Shown: piece by piece, positions 8,967 to 16,405 of the stretch
Layout: every line of letters begins with the position of its first letter
Position numbering within the stretch: position 1 is the first letter of the stretch
From: an uncultured Lachnospiraceae bacterium
GTDB lineage: Bacteria > Bacillota > Clostridia > Lachnospirales > Lachnospiraceae
Reading direction: 5' to 3'
Length of the DNA: 64,000 nt
NCBI GenBank assembly: GCA_947631955.1
Contig: CANRNJ010000007.1
Span: forward strand, 62,001 to 126,000
Made by a program: the position numbers and the translations under genes
The notes under the pieces: generated by a model
What the model saw: the letters and a program-made list of their open reading frames with translations, nothing else
Database searches by the model: none
What the model was told of the DNA's origin: nothing

Positions 8967-9411
8967 AATAATCTCCCGGCAGCATGGAAAATTACACCTT
9001 TATACAAGTTCGACACTGCACAACCTCGTCAGATTCCCTTCAGTACAAATTCATGCCGAAGCATAACACCGCATCTAAAACAAGTAACGATAGGCGATAT
9101 CTATCCGGCCAATCCCAACAGTTGCCTGACAGCAGGATTCTTTCCATCACAAAAGCGCTTTCCCCATTCTGCTTTATAAATATATAATTTATTTAAAGAC
9201 TCAGCATTAGTCTTTCTGTCTTATATTCTGGACACATCCTTCAATAGCCTGCATATAGCATCTTTCCAATATCTCCCTTATTCCTTCTTTATAGAATAGA
9301 TAACTATTATTCTGCATCTATAATTATTGGCGCCTATATCTATATACTACATTTCCTTTGAGGACTGTTAATATTTGTCAGGTTCATATTCTTTGTTCTC
9401 CAACAAAAAAA
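8967..9411. other. Gene-free AT-rich spacer
   Basis: About 445 bases with no convincing gene. The minus strand holds one short open stretch (ESLNKLYIYKAEWGKRFCDG... near 9110-9210) bounded by stops that could be another scrap of a glycan gene. I see no RNA gene or clear promoter pair. Confidence 0.4.
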
Positions 9412-9472
9412 TTCCGGCATAAAGTATATTTGATATTTCACCTTTTAGTCAATTCCATACTTTATACCGGGA
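9412..9472 (-). terminator. Hairpin at the left end of unit A
   Basis: Arms TTCCGGCATAAAGTAT and CATACTTTATACCGGGA pair across about 28 nt. In minus-strand sense the stem is followed by a T-rich run (opposite 9405-9411), so it can terminate the rpn transcript. Confidence 0.6.
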
Positions 9473-9531
9473 TTTTTACAAATCCTTATTTAATTTTCCA
9501 CAGCTGAACAGCAGCCGATCAACGTCCGCTT

Positions 9532-10440
9532 TTATTCTACGCTTCTATAATACTTCTCAACTTCCTCACGGGTGTATTCAGAGTACACTTTATTTCGGAT
9601 AACCGCGGCATATACTGCCTCAAAATCAGGCAGCAGGGATTTCAAAGAACCCACAAGCACAGCAAGACCTTCTTTTCGTCCTTCTTCTATCCCCTCTGCC
9701 CGGCTTTCTTCCAGTTCCGCCCTGTGGTCCGCCTGATCCGCATAGTACGACATGTACTCCACCATCAGTCTTGGATCTCTCTTTGCTGTTTCCACCGCTT
9801 CCACCAGCCTTTCTGTATATTCGTCTGCTGCCGTCCCTTCCGCCAGATACTTAAGAAAATTTCCAAGTTCCGGCGTGACGTCGTTCATCTCCGAATAGGG
9901 ATTCAGGAAGATCTTCACCGCTCCGTCGCCGAGCGCCAGATCCGGCTCTTCCCTGCACCGGTCCTCAAAGGTGTAGATGTGCCTGCCCCTATGGAAGATG
10001 TCCTCCATGCAGATAAAGATCACAAAACTCTTATTGAGCCGCCGGTAATCCTCTCCTCTGCCGAGCAGGTCCACATCGATCAGGTTCTGGTAATACCGGC
10101 TCCTCTGGGGCAGGTTTGCCGCGTGCGCCGCCTGCATCTCCACATTGTAGACAGTGGATCTCTCGTCTTTCACATAGACGTCCAGACGGATGCCCTTGGC
10201 GTCATACCGGGCTTCGATGGTCTTCTCGCCCTCCAGATACTCGATCCGCTCGATCTCCACATTCAGGATGATCTCCAGAAGCCGTCTGCACAGCTCCGCA
10301 TCCTGCATCACCTTATAGAAGATGAAGCGGTCGGCGAGGGTCAGTTCCGCAAGCGCCTTTGGCAGCGCGTTTTCCTGTCTGCCTTTATTATATGGCGCGG
10401 CAGGAGTTTTTACAATGATCTCCCGTGTGTTTTTTGCCAA
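9532..10440 (-). CDS. Rpn/PD-(D/E)XK nuclease family protein, copy A
   Basis: Member of the Rpn (recombination-promoting nuclease, PDDEXK_2, often labelled transposase) family; relatives are DNA endonucleases. The 302 residues include an N-terminal ELTLADRFIFYKVM block and the catalytic core RLDVYVKDE ... VYNVEMQ near residues 83-102 (Asp and Glu-X-Gln, the usual variant). The FVIFICMEDIF and YTFEDRCREE region follows, and the variable tail contains SRAEGIEEGRKEGLAVLV. The start is TTG at 10440 behind AGAGG. Compared with copy B the core is nearly identical but the tail has 11 extra residues. The role (transposition, recombination or phage defence) cannot be decided from sequence. Confidence 0.85.
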   Translation of the reverse strand: MAKNTREIIVKTPAAPYNKGRQENALPKALAELTLADRFIFYKVMQDAELCRRLLEIILNVEIERIEYLEGEKTIEARYDAKGIRLDVYVKDERSTVYNVEMQAAHAANLPQRSRYYQNLIDVDLLGRGEDYRRLNKSFVIFICMEDIFHRGRHIYTFEDRCREEPDLALGDGAVKIFLNPYSEMNDVTPELGNFLKYLAEGTAADEYTERLVEAVETAKRDPRLMVEYMSYYADQADHRAELEESRAEGIEEGRKEGLAVLVGSLKSLLPDFEAVYAAVIRNKVYSEYTREEVEKYYRSVE

Positions 10441-10702
10441 TCTTTCCTCTCTTTCCGCGTGGGAAAGCCGGGATGACGGTCAGGTCAGTCCTGCCGTCCT
10501 TTTCCTGAAAAGCAGTCTTCATCCGCAGTATGCGCTTGTCCCACACTCTGTTATGCTGTCTGTTCTTTCCGTTGGGATACCTGCTTGAAATATGGGATAT
10601 CCGTCGATATCTCATAAGCACGATTCCTGTTGCGAAACGGCGGAAACTGAATGGATCATGTCTTCCGCCATATCCGGCAGCAAGACCGCTGCCGATAGAA
10701 AC

Positions 10703-10731
10703 AATATAACAAATGCGTATATGAATTGCAA
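10703..10731 (-). promoter_or_regulatory. Promoter of rpn copy A
   Basis: TTGCAA, 17 nt, TATATT on the minus strand. The same pair (TTGCAG-17-TATATT) is conserved upstream of copy B, giving a leader of about 260 nt. Confidence 0.55.
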
Positions 10732-10903
10732 GTAATTTAAGGTACAAACTTTACAACAACTTTACATAGTTTCTGCAATTTACATAGCAATCCATCTTGA
10801 AACTTACACGGGTCAATGTCTGTAACTGTTCCTGATATAAAGTATGAAATTGTCAAGGTGCTAAACCATCCATATCTATGTTAAATATTTTGTAGATGTC
10901 ATA

Positions 10904-11164
10904 TCATTCTATCTGTTCTGCAAATCCTTCTATCGTTTCCGCCATTCGATCCCACGAAAAACAATATGCTTCTTGGTTTACATTTTGTATAAATTCTTTT
11001 TCTTTACCCTGTAGAAAATAATCTGCGACTGCGTCCGCTAACGCTATCGGACTTTCTGCTTCCACCACATATCCAACTTTCCCATCATCTATTACATCCG
11101 ACAGTCCTTCCACATTTATAACAATCACAGTTTTATCAAAACTGTTATATATTCCTTTTTTCAT
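10904..11164 (-). pseudogene. C-terminal remnant of a GT4 glycosyltransferase
   Basis: The frame VIVINVEGLSDVIDDGKVGY ... CFSWDRMAETIEGFAEQ is the C-terminal donor-domain end of a GT4 enzyme. It lacks the first three quarters, including the EX7E motif, and begins just downstream of the radical SAM gene. Probably the scar of a deletion next to unit A. Confidence 0.65.
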
Positions 11165-11177
11165 TTCTTTTCCCGAT

Positions 11178-12035
11178 TTATGTCCATTCGCTGATATCCC
11201 TCTTGGAATTTTCCCACTTATTCCCATAAGTCCGTTCTTTGACCGCACAATACTTGCACAACGGTATAGGTTGTGTCAGTTTTCTTATAACTTCTTCGGT
11301 GCTATAATCTTGATATATATCTACCCCATCTGCTTCTGTGACTGGAATATTTTTATGAAAATATTTATTAAAACGATCCATACATGCAGCATATGAACAA
11401 GTGTAAAGATGTCCATGCGCCAAGTTGATGCAATTTCCCGCCATATGGCAATGCGTAAATCCATACACTTCATCTTGGTTTCCCGTTTCATCTAACGGTA
11501 ATTTATACTGTTTCTTTTTCAGAAACTTTGTCCGGCCCTTATAAATAATTTTTACCTTTCCCTTTTGATCCTGCATAATCTTTTTGATTTTTGCATAATC
11601 ATAATTTACCGGATATTTTGTGATTTCAATGACAATATTATATTGATTACAAACATTCCAGAATTTATCATCCATTTGTTCTAGCAAAAAACCATTTGTT
11701 ATAATATATATAGGGGTTTTTCTATATGCTTCTCTGGCAATAACAAGCATTTCACTGATTCGTTTATGTAATAAAGGCTCTCCTCCCAAAATATAAAACC
11801 GTTTAACACAGCCATCTGGCAGGAGTTCACTTGTCCTTTGCACATCCTTTCTAAAATCCTCTACATCAATAAACCATTTTTCTGCAATAGGAGAAAAATG
11901 CGTACATCCCTTACAATTCAAATTACAATGACTAGCTAAGTCTATTTCTATAGAATCAATCTGTACAACTTTTTTATTTAAATTACGCGGAATCCAACTT
12001 TTATACGGTTTTTGAAAATAATTAATTATGTTCAT
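11178..12035 (-). CDS. Radical SAM enzyme in a polysaccharide cluster
   Basis: A 285-residue radical SAM protein. The CNLNCKGC motif (CxxxCxxC, residues about 37-44) binds the 4Fe-4S cluster and S-adenosylmethionine. The GGEPLLH motif (about 84-90) is the usual GGE strand. Later cysteines (CHMAGNC, LYTCSYAAC and C-terminal LCKYCAVKER) look like a SPASM-type auxiliary cluster. Good GAGG site before the ATG. It lies 16 nt downstream of a GT2 gene and is probably co-transcribed. Such enzymes occur in capsule loci, but the substrate here (sugar, lipid carrier or peptide) is unknown. Confidence 0.8.
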   Translation of the reverse strand: MNIINYFQKPYKSWIPRNLNKKVVQIDSIEIDLASHCNLNCKGCTHFSPIAEKWFIDVEDFRKDVQRTSELLPDGCVKRFYILGGEPLLHKRISEMLVIAREAYRKTPIYIITNGFLLEQMDDKFWNVCNQYNIVIEITKYPVNYDYAKIKKIMQDQKGKVKIIYKGRTKFLKKKQYKLPLDETGNQDEVYGFTHCHMAGNCINLAHGHLYTCSYAACMDRFNKYFHKNIPVTEADGVDIYQDYSTEEVIRKLTQPIPLCKYCAVKERTYGNKWENSKRDISEWT

Positions 12036-12051
12036 ATCGTGCTAACCTCTT

Positions 12052-13056
12052 TCATAATTTATAAAATATTTTTACAAACAATTTTTCGCAATTCCAGTGG
12101 ATCATATGTGCAAAAACAGCAACAGCCATCTTCTGCTTCATTTCAATATCGTTCTTTTTCCAAAGAGATAAATATGGATTATGTGTATACGATGGGCAGT
12201 AGCTTTCAAGAATCATACGCGCATAATCACATAATTCCCCTATAAGTTTCATGTCACTTTTTCTATCTGCCAACTTAAAATATCTGTGTTTCCTGTTCGC
12301 TTCCAATATAAAATATGTAAAGAAACTCATTAACGTATATACAAAAATGTCATAATTATTGGGTTGGTGATTAATTACATATCTTACTGATTCTTCCAAT
12401 TCCTTAAACGGTACATCACTTTCCAGAATCTTTCTTGTGGTAATACTATTCAAATGAACCAATTGATAGTATCCTTCATATTGCAAAAAGCTGATGCGTT
12501 CGGTCAGGAAAAAAGCTGCCAGATTAAATGGATTGTCTTCGTATGTCTTTCCTTCAGGGAATCGTAGATTATGTTTTCGCAAATAATCCACCCGATATAA
12601 TTTTCCATGCATATTTAGATGCCTGAGAACACATTTTCCCTCTCTATCCAAATGGTACTGCACATGAGAAATAATCTTTCCATCTTCCGTAATGCGATAC
12701 TGTCCGCTGCATACAACATCTGCCTGATTGCTTTCGGCTTTCTCTACCAATACAGATAAATACCGAGAGTCCAGATAATCGTCACTGTCTAAAAAAACCA
12801 CATATTTACTATTCTTTAATTGATCCATGCCATAATTTCTTGCACTGGATAATCCGCCGTTTTCCTTATTGCGATATGAAATATAAGAATACTTATTGGT
12901 ATACTCTTTAAGAATATGCTCTGTATTATCCGTACTTCCATCATTCACAACAAGAACATCATAACTATGAAAACTTTGCTGCACGACAGACTCCAAACAC
13001 TGATATATATATTTTTCTGCATTATAGGCAGGAATTATAACCGTCACAAGACTCAT
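12052..13056 (-). CDS. Glycosyltransferase family 2
   Basis: A 334-residue GT-A transferase. It has VTVIIPAYNAEKYIYQCLES at the N-terminus, VVNDGSTDNTEHIL, ENGGLSSARNYGMD, and the metal-binding FLDSDDYLDSRY near residue 90. The C-terminal half is helical with no membrane segment. It is the first gene of a two-gene unit with the radical SAM enzyme, and both are boxed in by the two Rpn units in the same orientation. Specificity unknown. Confidence 0.85.
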   Translation of the reverse strand: MSLVTVIIPAYNAEKYIYQCLESVVQQSFHSYDVLVVNDGSTDNTEHILKEYTNKYSYISYRNKENGGLSSARNYGMDQLKNSKYVVFLDSDDYLDSRYLSVLVEKAESNQADVVCSGQYRITEDGKIISHVQYHLDREGKCVLRHLNMHGKLYRVDYLRKHNLRFPEGKTYEDNPFNLAAFFLTERISFLQYEGYYQLVHLNSITTRKILESDVPFKELEESVRYVINHQPNNYDIFVYTLMSFFTYFILEANRKHRYFKLADRKSDMKLIGELCDYARMILESYCPSYTHNPYLSLWKKNDIEMKQKMAVAVFAHMIHWNCEKLFVKIFYKL

Positions 13057-13130
13057 TTAACACTCCTCTTTCTCGATTTTACAAGTCCGATAGTATACAC
13101 TAAACATATAATTCTTCTTTGCGCATAAAA

Positions 13131-13189
13131 CCCGGTACAAAGTATGTTTTATGCCGCGCTTTTTAGTCAATTTCATACTTTATACCGGG
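13131..13189 (-). terminator. Hairpin at the left end of unit B
   Basis: CCCGGTACAAAGTATG pairs with CATACTTTATACCGGG; minus-strand transcripts then read TTTTATG. It differs from the unit A hairpin at bases on both arms while keeping the stem, which suggests the fold matters. Confidence 0.6.
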
Positions 13190-13249
13190 ATTTTTACAAA
13201 CCCTTATTTAATTGTCCACAGCTAAACAGCAGCCGATCAACGTCTGCTT

Positions 13250-14125
13250 TTATTCTACGCTTCTATAATACTTCTCGACTTCTTCACGAGTGTATTCAGA
13301 ATACACTTTATTTCGGATAACCGCGGCATATACTGCCTCAAAATCAGGAAGTATAGATTTCAAAGTTTCCACAAGTGCAGCAAGCCCCTCTTCTATTCCT
13401 TCCGCACGGCTATCCGCCTGATCCGCATAGTACGACATGTACTCCACCATCAGTCTTGGATCTCTCTTTGCTGTTTCCACCGCTTCCACCAGCCTTTCTG
13501 TATATTCGTCTGCTGCCGTCCCTTCCGCCAGATACTTAAGAAAATTTCCAAGTTCCGGCGTGACGTCGTTCATCTCCGAATAGGGATTCAGGAAGATCTT
13601 CACCGCTCCGTCGCCGAGCGCCAGATCCGGCTCTTCCCTGCACCGGTCCTCAAAGGTGTAGATGTGCCTGCCCCTATGGAAGATGTCCTCCATGCAGATA
13701 AAGATCACAAAACTCTTATTGAGCCGCCGGTAATCCTCTCCTCTGCCGAGCAGGTCCACATCGATCAGGTTCTGGTAATACCGGCTCCTCTGGGGCAGAT
13801 TTGCCGCGTGCGCCGCCTGCATCTCCACGTTGTATACGGTAGATCTCTCGTCCTTCACATAGACGTCCAGACGGATGCCTTTGGCGTCATACCGGACTTC
13901 GATGGTCTTCTCGCCTTCCAGATACTCGATCCGCTCGATCTCCACATTCAGGATGATCTCCAGAAGCCGTCTGCACAGTTCCGCATCCTGCATCACCTTA
14001 TAGAAAATAAATCGGTCGGCGAGGGTCAGTTCCGCAAGCGCCTTTGGCAGCTCGTTTTCCTGTCTGCCTTTATTATATGGCGCGGCAGGAGTTTTTACAA
14101 TGGTCTCCCGTGTGTTTTTTGCCAA
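13250..14125 (-). CDS. Rpn/PD-(D/E)XK nuclease family protein, copy B
   Basis: A 291-residue near-twin of copy A. The catalytic core RLDVYVKDE ... YNVEMQ and the following 120 residues are almost unchanged (for example Ile8 to Thr, Ala25 to Glu). The tail lacks two blocks (HRAELEE and RKEG) and carries several substitutions in the LAALVETLKSILPD segment. Change is therefore concentrated in the C-terminal tail, the part that varies most in this family. TTG start behind AGAGG as in copy A. Both copies look intact. Confidence 0.85.
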   Translation of the reverse strand: MAKNTRETIVKTPAAPYNKGRQENELPKALAELTLADRFIFYKVMQDAELCRRLLEIILNVEIERIEYLEGEKTIEVRYDAKGIRLDVYVKDERSTVYNVEMQAAHAANLPQRSRYYQNLIDVDLLGRGEDYRRLNKSFVIFICMEDIFHRGRHIYTFEDRCREEPDLALGDGAVKIFLNPYSEMNDVTPELGNFLKYLAEGTAADEYTERLVEAVETAKRDPRLMVEYMSYYADQADSRAEGIEEGLAALVETLKSILPDFEAVYAAVIRNKVYSEYTREEVEKYYRSVE

Positions 14126-14387
14126 TCTTTCCTCTCTTTCCGCGCGGGAAAGCCGGGATGACGGTCAGGTCAGTCCTGCCGTCCTTTTCCTGAAAAGCAG
14201 TCTTCATCCGCAGTATGCGCTTGTCCCACACTCTGTTATGCTGTCTGTTCTTTCCGTTGGGATACCTGCTTGAAATATGGGATATCCGTCGATATCTCAT
14301 AAGCACGATTCCTGTTGCGAAACGGCGGAAACTGAATGGATCATATCTTCCGCCATATCCGGCAGCAAGACCGCTGCCGATAGAAAC

Positions 14388-14416
14388 AATATAACAGATG
14401 CGTATATGAACTGCAA
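14388..14416 (-). promoter_or_regulatory. Promoter of rpn copy B
   Basis: TTGCAG, 17 nt, TATATT on the minus strand, at the same place as in copy A. Confidence 0.5.
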
Positions 14417-14579
14417 GTGGTTTTTCGTTCTTCTTCTTTTCTTCACCGTAGAAGATTCCGTTCAAAACACACATGATTTACCTCTGATTTTTGTTCCCTA
14501 TATAAAGTATGAAATTGTCAAAGTGCGCTACTGTCTGTATCTTGTTAAATTCACCCCGGCCACTCCAAAAAACAACAAA

Positions 14580-14619
14580 ATTCCCAACATAAGACAATTG
14601 CATATCTTACGTTGGGAAT
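14580..14619 (-). terminator. Hairpin/terminator after the coiled-coil gene
   Basis: ATTCCCAACATAAGA pairs with TCTTACGTTGGGAAT (14 of 15) around a 10-nt loop. In minus sense it is followed by TTTTGTTGTTTTTT, a good rho-independent terminator. Confidence 0.75.
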
Positions 14620-14657
14620 CTTTTATTTTAACTATGTCTTTGATCGACTCTGCCCGC

Positions 14658-15053
14658 TTATACCGGTATTTTCTCTAATTTCTGGCTATGCTTCTCAACA
14701 ACGCATTTTAATACTTCAATATCCGATGCCATGCCGTCTATCTGCTCTGTGCGCTCTATATATTTCCGGGAAGTATCCAGATAACAGGATTCTATAGTAG
14801 CAAGCCGCGGCATCACATTATTTTCCAACTGTACTATCCTGATATACCGCAATTCTTCCTTTAAACTTCCTGTTTCTGACTTCAAGCCATTGACTTCCTG
14901 TTTCAAGCCGCTGACTTCTGAATCCAAACCATCGACCTTTAACTTCAAGCCGCTAATCTCCGTCCTCAAGCCATCGAACTTATTTTCCAGTTTCTGGTCC
15001 AGCTTCTCTTCCAACAACTCTGATATTGCCGAAAGCATTTCCATGTCTACCAT
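14658..15053 (-). CDS. Small coiled-coil protein
   Basis: About 131 residues, cytoplasmic and very charged. After an N-terminal helix (MLSAISELLEEKLDQKLENK) come four to five seven-residue repeats of the type GLKxEVx (GLKLKVD, GLDSEVS, GLKQEVN, GLKSETG), giving an ideal heptad coiled coil. A second helical stretch with a conserved NNVMPRLATIESCY segment follows. The ATG at 15053 has a perfect AAGGAGG site; the frame is open further upstream without support. No enzyme motif. A TATAAT -10 box lies at 15182-15187. Function unknown; similar heptad-repeat proteins are frequent in Lachnospiraceae. Confidence 0.7.
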   Translation of the reverse strand: MVDMEMLSAISELLEEKLDQKLENKFDGLRTEISGLKLKVDGLDSEVSGLKQEVNGLKSETGSLKEELRYIRIVQLENNVMPRLATIESCYLDTSRKYIERTEQIDGMASDIEVLKCVVEKHSQKLEKIPV

Positions 15054-15403
15054 TTGTTTTCCTCCTTTAATGTGCTGCTGCGGAAGAAACCGCCTTCCGC
15101 TCTGCATATAATCGTAACTATGAAATTTTGGCGAAAGGCCTGACACCGAAACAATTGGTGTGTCGCACATCAGAATTGAACATTATACAGTGCGAGAATT
15201 CATTTCATGTTTCCAATCTATCACACTAATGAGAAAAATGCAAGCAGATTTTAAATTTATTATAATCGTTATTTCGTTAATATTAGTATCGTTCTGTTCC
15301 CTGCCGTAAGATATGCAATTGTCAAGGTGCTTTGGCTGTCATACTGATCCGCATGACATCTGCCGGGTTGAATACAAAGCCTTATCTGGCAACATCTGCC
15401 ATT

Positions 15404-16378
15404 CTATGAATTATGCTCTACTTTCTGCTGTCTGTAGAGCGCGTCGTATTCTGTCTTTCTGGCGTGATACTGAGTATCCTGAAGAAGTTTTCTGTTCGCG
15501 GCGATCACATCCGCCATCAGGCCGATCATAAAGGTCAAAAAACCCATAATGATCAATGTGCACGCCAGTATCAGCGACTGTATATGCCCTCCGGGTCTTC
15601 CGATGACCATATAGTACAGGAAACGGAAACCAATGATAAGACCGATGCCGACCGGTCCTGCCGCCAGAAACGTAAAAGATTTCAACGGTTTGTACATCAT
15701 ATACGCCCGCAGGATAGTGACCATGCTTTTCTTCACATAACTCCAGATACTTTGAAACAGTCTGGATGGGCGGAGTTCCGCGTTGGTGTGTACCGGGACG
15801 CTGGTGATTGCGATCTTCTCACGGCCGGCCTGAACGATCGTTTCCAACGTGTATGTATAGTCGTTTACCACGTTGATCCGCATGGCGGCTTCTCTGGAGA
15901 AAGCCCTAAACCCGCTTGGCGCATCGGGGATATCCGTATTGGAGGCCCGGCGTACCGCCCAGCTTCCAAGATGCTGCAGTTTCTTCTTAATAAAAGAAAA
16001 ATGCTCCGTATCGTCAATGGGCCGCGCGCCGATGACCATGTCCGCCTTGCCGTCCAAGATTGGTCTGATCAGGGTAGCGATATCCTCCGCACAGTATTGA
16101 TTGTCCGCATCGGTGTTGACGATAATATCCGCCCCGTTCCGCAGGCACCCGTCCAGTCCCGCCATAAATCCCTTGGCCAGACCTTTATTCTGTTTAAAGT
16201 TCACAACATAATTTACGCCCCACTTCCGGGCCACTTCCACCGTATTGTCTTTACTTCCGTCATTGATGATGAGATATTCGATCTCATCGATCCCTTCCAA
16301 CTTCTTGGGGAGATCATTCAGCGCTACCTCCAACGTTTCCGCTTCGTTATAGCAGGGTATCTGAATGATAAGCTTCAT
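15404..16378 (-). CDS. Polyprenyl-phosphate glycosyltransferase (DPM1/GtrB-like GT2)
   Basis: Likely loads a sugar from a nucleotide donor onto undecaprenyl phosphate, making the lipid donor used by GT39-type enzymes such as the one encoded next to it. The 324 residues have IIQIPCYNEAETL at the N-terminus, LIINDGSKDNTVEVA, GLAKGFMAGLDGCL, VNTDADNQY (the DXD site, about 93-101) and SGFRAFSREAAMRIN, all typical of the DPM1 branch. Two C-terminal membrane helices span about 232-285. The ATG at 16378 has AAGGTG six bases before it. It lies 27 nt downstream of the GT39-like gene, so the two form a functional pair. Confidence 0.85.
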   Translation of the reverse strand: MKLIIQIPCYNEAETLEVALNDLPKKLEGIDEIEYLIINDGSKDNTVEVARKWGVNYVVNFKQNKGLAKGFMAGLDGCLRNGADIIVNTDADNQYCAEDIATLIRPILDGKADMVIGARPIDDTEHFSFIKKKLQHLGSWAVRRASNTDIPDAPSGFRAFSREAAMRINVVNDYTYTLETIVQAGREKIAITSVPVHTNAELRPSRLFQSIWSYVKKSMVTILRAYMMYKPLKSFTFLAAGPVGIGLIIGFRFLYYMVIGRPGGHIQSLILACTLIIMGFLTFMIGLMADVIAANRKLLQDTQYHARKTEYDALYRQQKVEHNS

Positions 16379-16405
16379 GTGAATCACCTTTTGATCTTTT
16401 CTGTT

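Follow-up and report, generated by a model that had tools for sequence, protein, structure and literature searches.

The window analysed here is a 64,000-nucleotide stretch of a contig from an uncultured Lachnospiraceae bacterium. Within a cell-surface sugar operon it contains a short unit, called unit C below, which spans 14567-15330 and carries its gene on the minus strand. Read along this strand, unit C consists of an upstream element L (GCACCTTGACAATTGCATATCTTACGGCAGGGAAC, 15296..15330), a coiled-coil gene from the ORF list (14658..15053, 131 amino acids plus stop, with the start taken at 15053), a terminator-like hairpin (R + R', 14577..14622) identified by the terminator scan and by folding, and a U-tract behind R' (14567..14576, tail GTTGTTTTTT in the scan). 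A glycosyltransferase gene (15404..16387, minus strand; ORF list and Pfam assignment of its homolog in genome G084) adjoins the unit upstream. Downstream, on the same strand, lie an Rpn unit (unit B) and then a second glycosyltransferase gene.

The first-pass annotation had described unit C as having matched ends. This is confirmed: a perfect 19-nucleotide inverted repeat, GACAATTGCATATCTTACG (14593-14611) and CGTAAGATATGCAATTGTC (15305-15323) with 693 nucleotides between the copies, joins the upstream end (L) to the downstream hairpin. The left copy is part of this hairpin (20 pairs and a loop of 6 in the scan), and the perfect complement of 19 nucleotides of L lies in its 5' arm and loop, the segment termed R. 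Homologous L elements were found in 72 units (see below). The unit does not encode Rpn according to Pfam and NCBIfam but a coiled coil, and the protein reaches no curated cut-off among the best 25 of 45 Pfam matches or among 23 NCBIfam matches. Of 36 further same-genus genomes searched, 27 have a homolog of the gene; a locus search with the coiled coil gave one weak match in a distant genome. The family has a second member in the same genome (G000:C3:133066-133404), with a longer repeated coil; no L:R pair was found at that locus.

Two further units in the window follow the same plan with different letters, again on the minus strand. Unit B consists of L (14491..14526), an Rpn gene (13250..14125) and R + R' (13140..13190), and unit A of L (10826..10861), an Rpn gene (9532..10440) and R + R' (9407..9472). 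The L elements were located by end-sequence comparison, the Rpn genes by PF12784 and TIGR01784, and the hairpins as inverted repeats, since both have loops longer than the terminator scan allows and were missed by it. Between the two units lie the second glycosyltransferase gene (12052..13056, minus strand, downstream of unit B; Pfam assignment of the G084 homolog) and, next in the operon, a gene (11178..12035, minus strand) with an 84% identical homolog in G084 and G085, whose sequence looks radical SAM-like. Units A and B are alike from a GCAC through the end of the hairpin, apart from divergence after L and in the hairpin loop. Outside this stretch the copies are unlike, and the unit boundaries coincide with the ends. 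The leader of both (10441-10735 and 14126-14420), located behind the likely promoter and ahead of the start codon, is long and nearly identical and holds a TATCGGCAG...CTGCCGGA inverted repeat that is possibly regulatory.

The outermost part of L, the 14-mer AATTGTCAAGGTGC, has exact copies at 15317-15330 and 10848-10861 and a copy with one mismatch at 14513-14526. When no more than one mismatch is allowed, it has six matches in the whole genome; every one of them is on the plus strand and marks a unit end, and a seventh unit end carries two mismatches. When up to two mismatches are allowed genome-wide, the 14-mer is not enriched (16 matches versus 29 for the backwards pattern), nor is the 8-mer CAAGGTGC by itself in the window (3 found versus 1.48 expected). 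Such ends are present at five of the eight Rpn-family matches of this genome and at one YhgA-like gene. The earlier statements that unit C is built like the Rpn units of its own genome, and that its end type differs from theirs, both hold: the predicted duplex of L of unit C is -37.7 kcal/mol with its own R, compared with -15.7 kcal/mol with R of unit B and -18.3 kcal/mol with that of unit A.

Further units were collected with sequence patterns. The pattern GCACNTTGACAATT gave 36 matches, some of which are not units, spread over 25 of 77 same-genus genomes, compared with 6 for its reversed control; a looser pattern gave 102 sites in 45 of the 77 (9 for the control). With one mismatch, TTGACAATTTCATACTTTAYATC turned up in 8 of 397 sampled genomes of the family, representing seven genera beyond this one; its reversed control was seen in none of the 397. 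A whole unit could be read in six of these seven genera. In all, 72 units (71 distinct) were read from this genus and six others of its family. They come from the window and 67 fetched regions (27 + 40) chosen from pattern matches, the 40 being picked from the 102 looser sites, and form set 1 (33 units) and set 2 (39 further units). Five of the 27 regions (L128, L140, L141, L145 and L147) and two of the 40 (L237 and L246) gave no unit. Seven false or mirror readings in set 1 and one mirror in set 2 were dropped before pooling. The automated finder located L by motif, required a minimum L:R match for acceptance and used a score that punished every mismatch alike; for L129:2644 and L129:4012 it assigned the R of the following unit.

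When loci were selected by protein instead, the Rpn loci that scored highest in 30 further genomes of the genus (a sample of best matches, not a frequency) lacked the ends. Among the protein-selected loci, L021, L024, L048 and L049 were not parsed and L029 was given a wrong terminator. No Rfam model matches 9300-15500 at E values up to 1, and at gathering thresholds the whole window yields only a tRNA. Carriage of the units by phage was rejected, TTGACAATTTCATACTTTANATCAG having no exact match in IMG/VR. No description of such units was found in the literature searched by title and beginning of abstract, a scope that leaves out most subscription journals.

The cargo of the units is varied and includes Rpn, YhgA-like, AAA-ATPase/PD-(D/E)XK, BrnT, MNT-like and coiled-coil proteins. 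Among ten cargo proteins scanned, the Pfam families were Transposase_31 (PF04754), AAA-ATPase_like with PDDEXK_9 (PF09820, PF08011), AAA_35 and BrnT (PF04365), while three belonged to no Pfam family. The MNT-like cargo of G030 and a BrnA-like partner are presumed identities, named from their sequences. Several units carry no Rpn at all (for example, unit C, L125, L126, L134 and L137, with coiled-coil, AAA-ATPase or BrnT cargo). In one array (L129:2644-5500, G012:C17) a PDDEXK_2-type Rpn unit is followed by a YhgA-like unit with an identical C-terminal stretch and a nearly identical terminator, which looks like exchange of a 3' module between nuclease families.

The units have a regular position within operons. 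L lies a median of 53 nucleotides past a co-directional stop codon (66 units). ORF calling puts the upstream gene on the strand of the unit in 66 of 72 cases, and in 67 after correction, because at unit C an antisense ORF had been picked instead of the true glycosyltransferase gene. For the five others (L143, L215, L226, L238 and L243) the upstream neighbour was called on the other strand and read-through from there is doubtful. For 71 of the 72 units a gene was called downstream, and it is co-directional every time; in 42 it begins within 90 nucleotides of R, a distance that includes the hairpin arm and becomes negative where an ORF start was called within the hairpin. Among protein-selected loci, the next gene is co-directional in 31 of 51 without L:R compared with nine of nine with L:R. 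Of 20 flanking proteins scanned at ten loci, 17 have a Pfam family, including LicD, glycosyltransferases 1 and 2, acyltransferase, CDP-glycerol glycerophosphotransferase, cytidylyltransferase, GHMP kinase, GDPD and radical SAM. At these ten loci the picture is one of surface-polysaccharide or teichoic-acid operons. By eye, the surroundings of L144 (behind a transposase-like gene) and of L139 look different.

One junction could be compared across species. Downstream of homologs of the upstream glycosyltransferase, L was present in three of 19 parsed loci of other genomes, with different cargo in each (YhgA-like in G013, two coiled coils in G021 and MNT-like in G030), and was found in none of the remaining 16; some of these 16 may not be orthologs, since the homologs are 67-87% identical in protein sequence. 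The script used found no glycosyltransferase at the unit's own locus (L056). Loci selected by L add G072, G084, G085, G093 and G097 at the same junction, where the glycosyltransferase is 82-88% identical to that of the window. The two genes that follow in G084 and G085 are also homologous to those of the window (77-78% and 84%), and in G093 this holds for at least the first. The same operon position is therefore empty or differently loaded across species. The first-pass annotation had set its reading against ends conserved simply as promoter and terminator of unrelated genes with no presence/absence polymorphism; at this junction presence and absence with exchanged cargo does exist. The empty and filled junctions are too diverged for a base-exact empty site.

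Evidence on the nature of the ends comes from the way in which L and R match. Complementarity of L to R is found in the 72 units. For counting, a core of 15 columns (4-18) was fixed after set 1 had been seen and was then applied to set 2; L144, whose register differs, was excluded. In 70 distinct units 1018 of 1050 core cells pair (Watson-Crick or G.U), a level due in part to the minimum L:R match needed for acceptance. Reshuffling R among the units 5000 times gave 960.6 +/- 4.3 paired cells with a maximum of 982. Two-sided changes occur (T-A to C-G in columns 4, 12 and 16; T-A to A-T or G-C in column 6), the last including U-A to G-C in unit C and G030. The earlier claim that the two ends co-vary therefore stands.

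The matching nevertheless follows the rules of sense-strand RNA, in which G.U is kept and A.C avoided, and not those of DNA, for which transitions on either side should be equally acceptable. Among the 70 distinct units, which are related, the core holds 82 G.U and 4 A.C mismatches. Numbers of G.U, A.C and other mismatches are 36, 1 and 10 in set 1 and 47, 3 and 19 in set 2; in columns 4-9, which form the terminator loop of most units, they are 19, 0 and 5 and 25, 0 and 10, respectively. Over all cells the G.U type accounts for 79 of 588 and the A.C type for 4 of 444. As L was found by motif, changes in L are hidden. This choice cannot matter when only cells with the consensus letter in L are counted, and these give U.G in 65 of 560 versus A.C or C.A in 4 of 388. 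The bias keeps its direction, though with smaller numbers and a falling ratio, when sequences are clustered (G.U to A.C of 46:4, 35:4, 30:4 and 15:3 for 31, 18, 12 and 4 clusters) and when each kind of mismatch is counted once (12 to 3). The hairpin arms R and R' show a similar bias (102 to 3 in 58 units). Transversion mismatches in the core number 28 and are most frequent in the edge column 18. Pairing of L with R as RNA is thus well supported by these alignments. The conserved letters at the outer tip of L, GCACCTTGA, have no pairing partner in R and are absent from it.

The variant L123:7372 (+ strand, G015:C70) carries CTTGATAT, common to L and R' and unmatched by R, as might be seen after conversion between L and R'; both of its L:R differences are transversions.

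R + R' looks like an intrinsic terminator. The U-tract hairpin was recognised by the scan in unit C and by fold energy and by eye in the other units; terminator-like sites in the region overall are no more numerous than expected (3 versus 4.3 in shuffles). In the predicted fold of unit C, the terminator alone has -24.8 kcal/mol, while with L present the L:R helix forms instead (-34.0 kcal/mol). L:R is predicted to be more stable than R:R' in 53 of 72 units, and R:R' equal or stronger in 19. The distance from L to R is mostly 0.4-2 kb, so that L must find R before R' is made, and the fold prediction ignores this timing. Promoter-like sites between L and the ORF (at 9 of 12) occur in 60% of units compared with 21% of letter shuffles, and the rule yields no site in unit B. 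L itself was considered as a -35 box (TTGACA) and rejected, as no -10 box could be seen by eye at the right distance.

Three features suggest a switch. Since R belongs to both helices, L:R and R:R' are mutually exclusive; since the likely promoter follows L, messages begun at the cassette would not contain L; and since genes often start only tens of nucleotides behind the hairpin, there is little room for another promoter. We propose that each cassette, mostly with one gene, comprises L, its own promoter, the cargo gene and an R:R' terminator in which L can pair with the 5' arm and loop. A transcript starting at the cassette promoter would not contain L; its R would fold with R' and transcription would stop after the cargo. 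A transcript of the operon would contain L, which would capture R as it emerges and leave R' unpaired. The terminator would not form and the downstream genes of the operon would be made. The cassette would in this way be transparent to its host operon and its own output insulated. We give a probability of about 0.6 to the reading of L as a cis-acting antiterminator that lets operon transcripts pass the R:R' terminator of the cassette. The wider generalisation, that exchangeable toxin-antitoxin, nuclease and other cassettes hide from the operon by means of a private RNA lock and key, a form of ligand-free sensing of where a transcript started, stands for us at even odds.

Other explanations must be weighed against this. 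L and R could be the terminal inverted repeats, at the DNA level, of a mobile element cut or joined by Rpn or by another transposase, the terminator being incidental. Unrelated cargo enclosed by inverted repeats, presence and absence at one junction, a copy without a gene but with both ends (G012, L129:6573) and the A/B alignment, which places the unit boundaries at the ends, would all fit such an element. DNA recognition, however, gives no reason for the asymmetry between G.U and A.C, and the repeat is inverted over about 20 nucleotides, yet the outer tip GCACCTTGA of L is missing from R. A mobile element would also not lead one to expect that 71 of 71 units are oriented along the next gene, and no target-site signature was seen by eye. 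The first-pass annotation had concluded that the two ends must recognise each other and had supposed that unit C may be a non-autonomous relative or a partner mobilised by Rpn. The RNA-type matching, the terminator-like downstream end, the uniform orientation, the best-match Rpn loci without ends and the units without Rpn all speak against ends at which Rpn recombines; all of these but the downstream end also count against the mobile-element explanation as a whole. No support was found for Rpn-driven transposition through these ends, and we regard an element of this kind as distinctly unlikely.

The same pairing data would be expected if the L:R duplex (roughly 20 nucleotides) served in RNA processing or stability, through cleavage by RNase III or by looping out the cargo message, and its length fits an RNase III substrate. 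This explanation, which we consider unlikely, fails to account for the place of R in the 5' arm and loop of the terminator-like hairpin and for the closeness of the next gene start. L might otherwise be a processive antitermination RNA of the EAR or put kind that modifies the polymerase, with its complementarity to R secondary. The antitermination factors RfaH and LoaP are linked to polysaccharide operons, and the conserved unpaired GCACCTTGA could bind a factor; EAR, too, is described from exopolysaccharide operons (PMC8955417). But L covaries with its own R between unit types, which would be needless in a processive system, and, as noted, Rfam shows no match in the region. This origin of the pattern appears very unlikely.

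Antitermination by L, the reading that we prefer, resembles known systems in part. In attenuators of the riboswitch or leader type, two exclusive RNA helices share a strand and one of them is an intrinsic terminator. The units also share R between exclusive helices, one of them terminator-like, but show no evident ligand, tRNA or leader peptide. Their antiterminator strand is in most cases separated from the terminator by 0.4-2 kb that include a gene and a likely promoter, and the switch would thus read the origin of the transcript. Prophage morons, which consist of an extra gene with its own promoter and terminator between co-directional operon genes, have the same placement and make-up, but depend on the general antitermination of the phage, whereas in the units the partner of the terminator is part of the cassette. 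Integron gene cassettes are likewise single-gene, with a 3' hairpin, one orientation and exchangeable cargo, features that the units share; the 25-30 nucleotide hairpin partner at the 5' end of the units is absent from integron cassettes.

A comparable problem is handled for whole operons by conAn and by LoaP/dfn, which change the polymerase, as described in PMC8955417 and PMC12691694. With conAn, only transcripts from the main promoter pass internal terminators and those from internal promoters stop (PMC8955417). The pass-through proposed here would similarly be limited to transcripts from the main promoter. In conAn, LoaP/dfn, EAR and put, however, an element at the start of the operon acts on many terminators through the polymerase, while in the units every terminator is served by a separate partner upstream, to which it is matched through base pairing. 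The Rpn papers (PMC5350276, PMC10327210) describe horizontal spread of these genes; the terms 'inverted repeat' and 'hairpin' occur in the main text of neither. Many units carry Rpn or YhgA-like cargo, but other cargo is found here too. E. coli rpnC, which is antisense to panC and panD, was rejected as an analogue because of this position.

If the proposal is correct, it would show why long operons can take up defence-like genes, terminators included, in their middle without silencing of the genes downstream, and it would represent a compact RNA device of two parts by which read-through is kept apart from local transcription. The ends also provide a sequence handle by which these cassettes, together with the unknown coiled-coil family, can be collected as a set.

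Some minor observations concern the ends and arrays. The sequence GCACCTTGACAATTCACATAYGATT, with 14 nucleotides identical to outer L, occurs at two loci (L078, G063:C148; L090, G092:C12) in elements that look IS66-like from their sequences; in G063 it forms an inverted pair flanking a gene that is presumably TnpC-like. IS66 was set aside as a mobiliser, as its match to L consists of the 14 nucleotides chosen by the search plus little more. A miniature without a gene (L129:6573-6680, G012:C17) contains only L, R and R' and lies 9 nucleotides behind a stop codon. In two tandem arrays (L129:4012/6573 and, on the reverse strand, L134 5307/7132) the 20-40 nucleotides that flank L upstream are duplicated before the second unit, a possible trace of unit addition.
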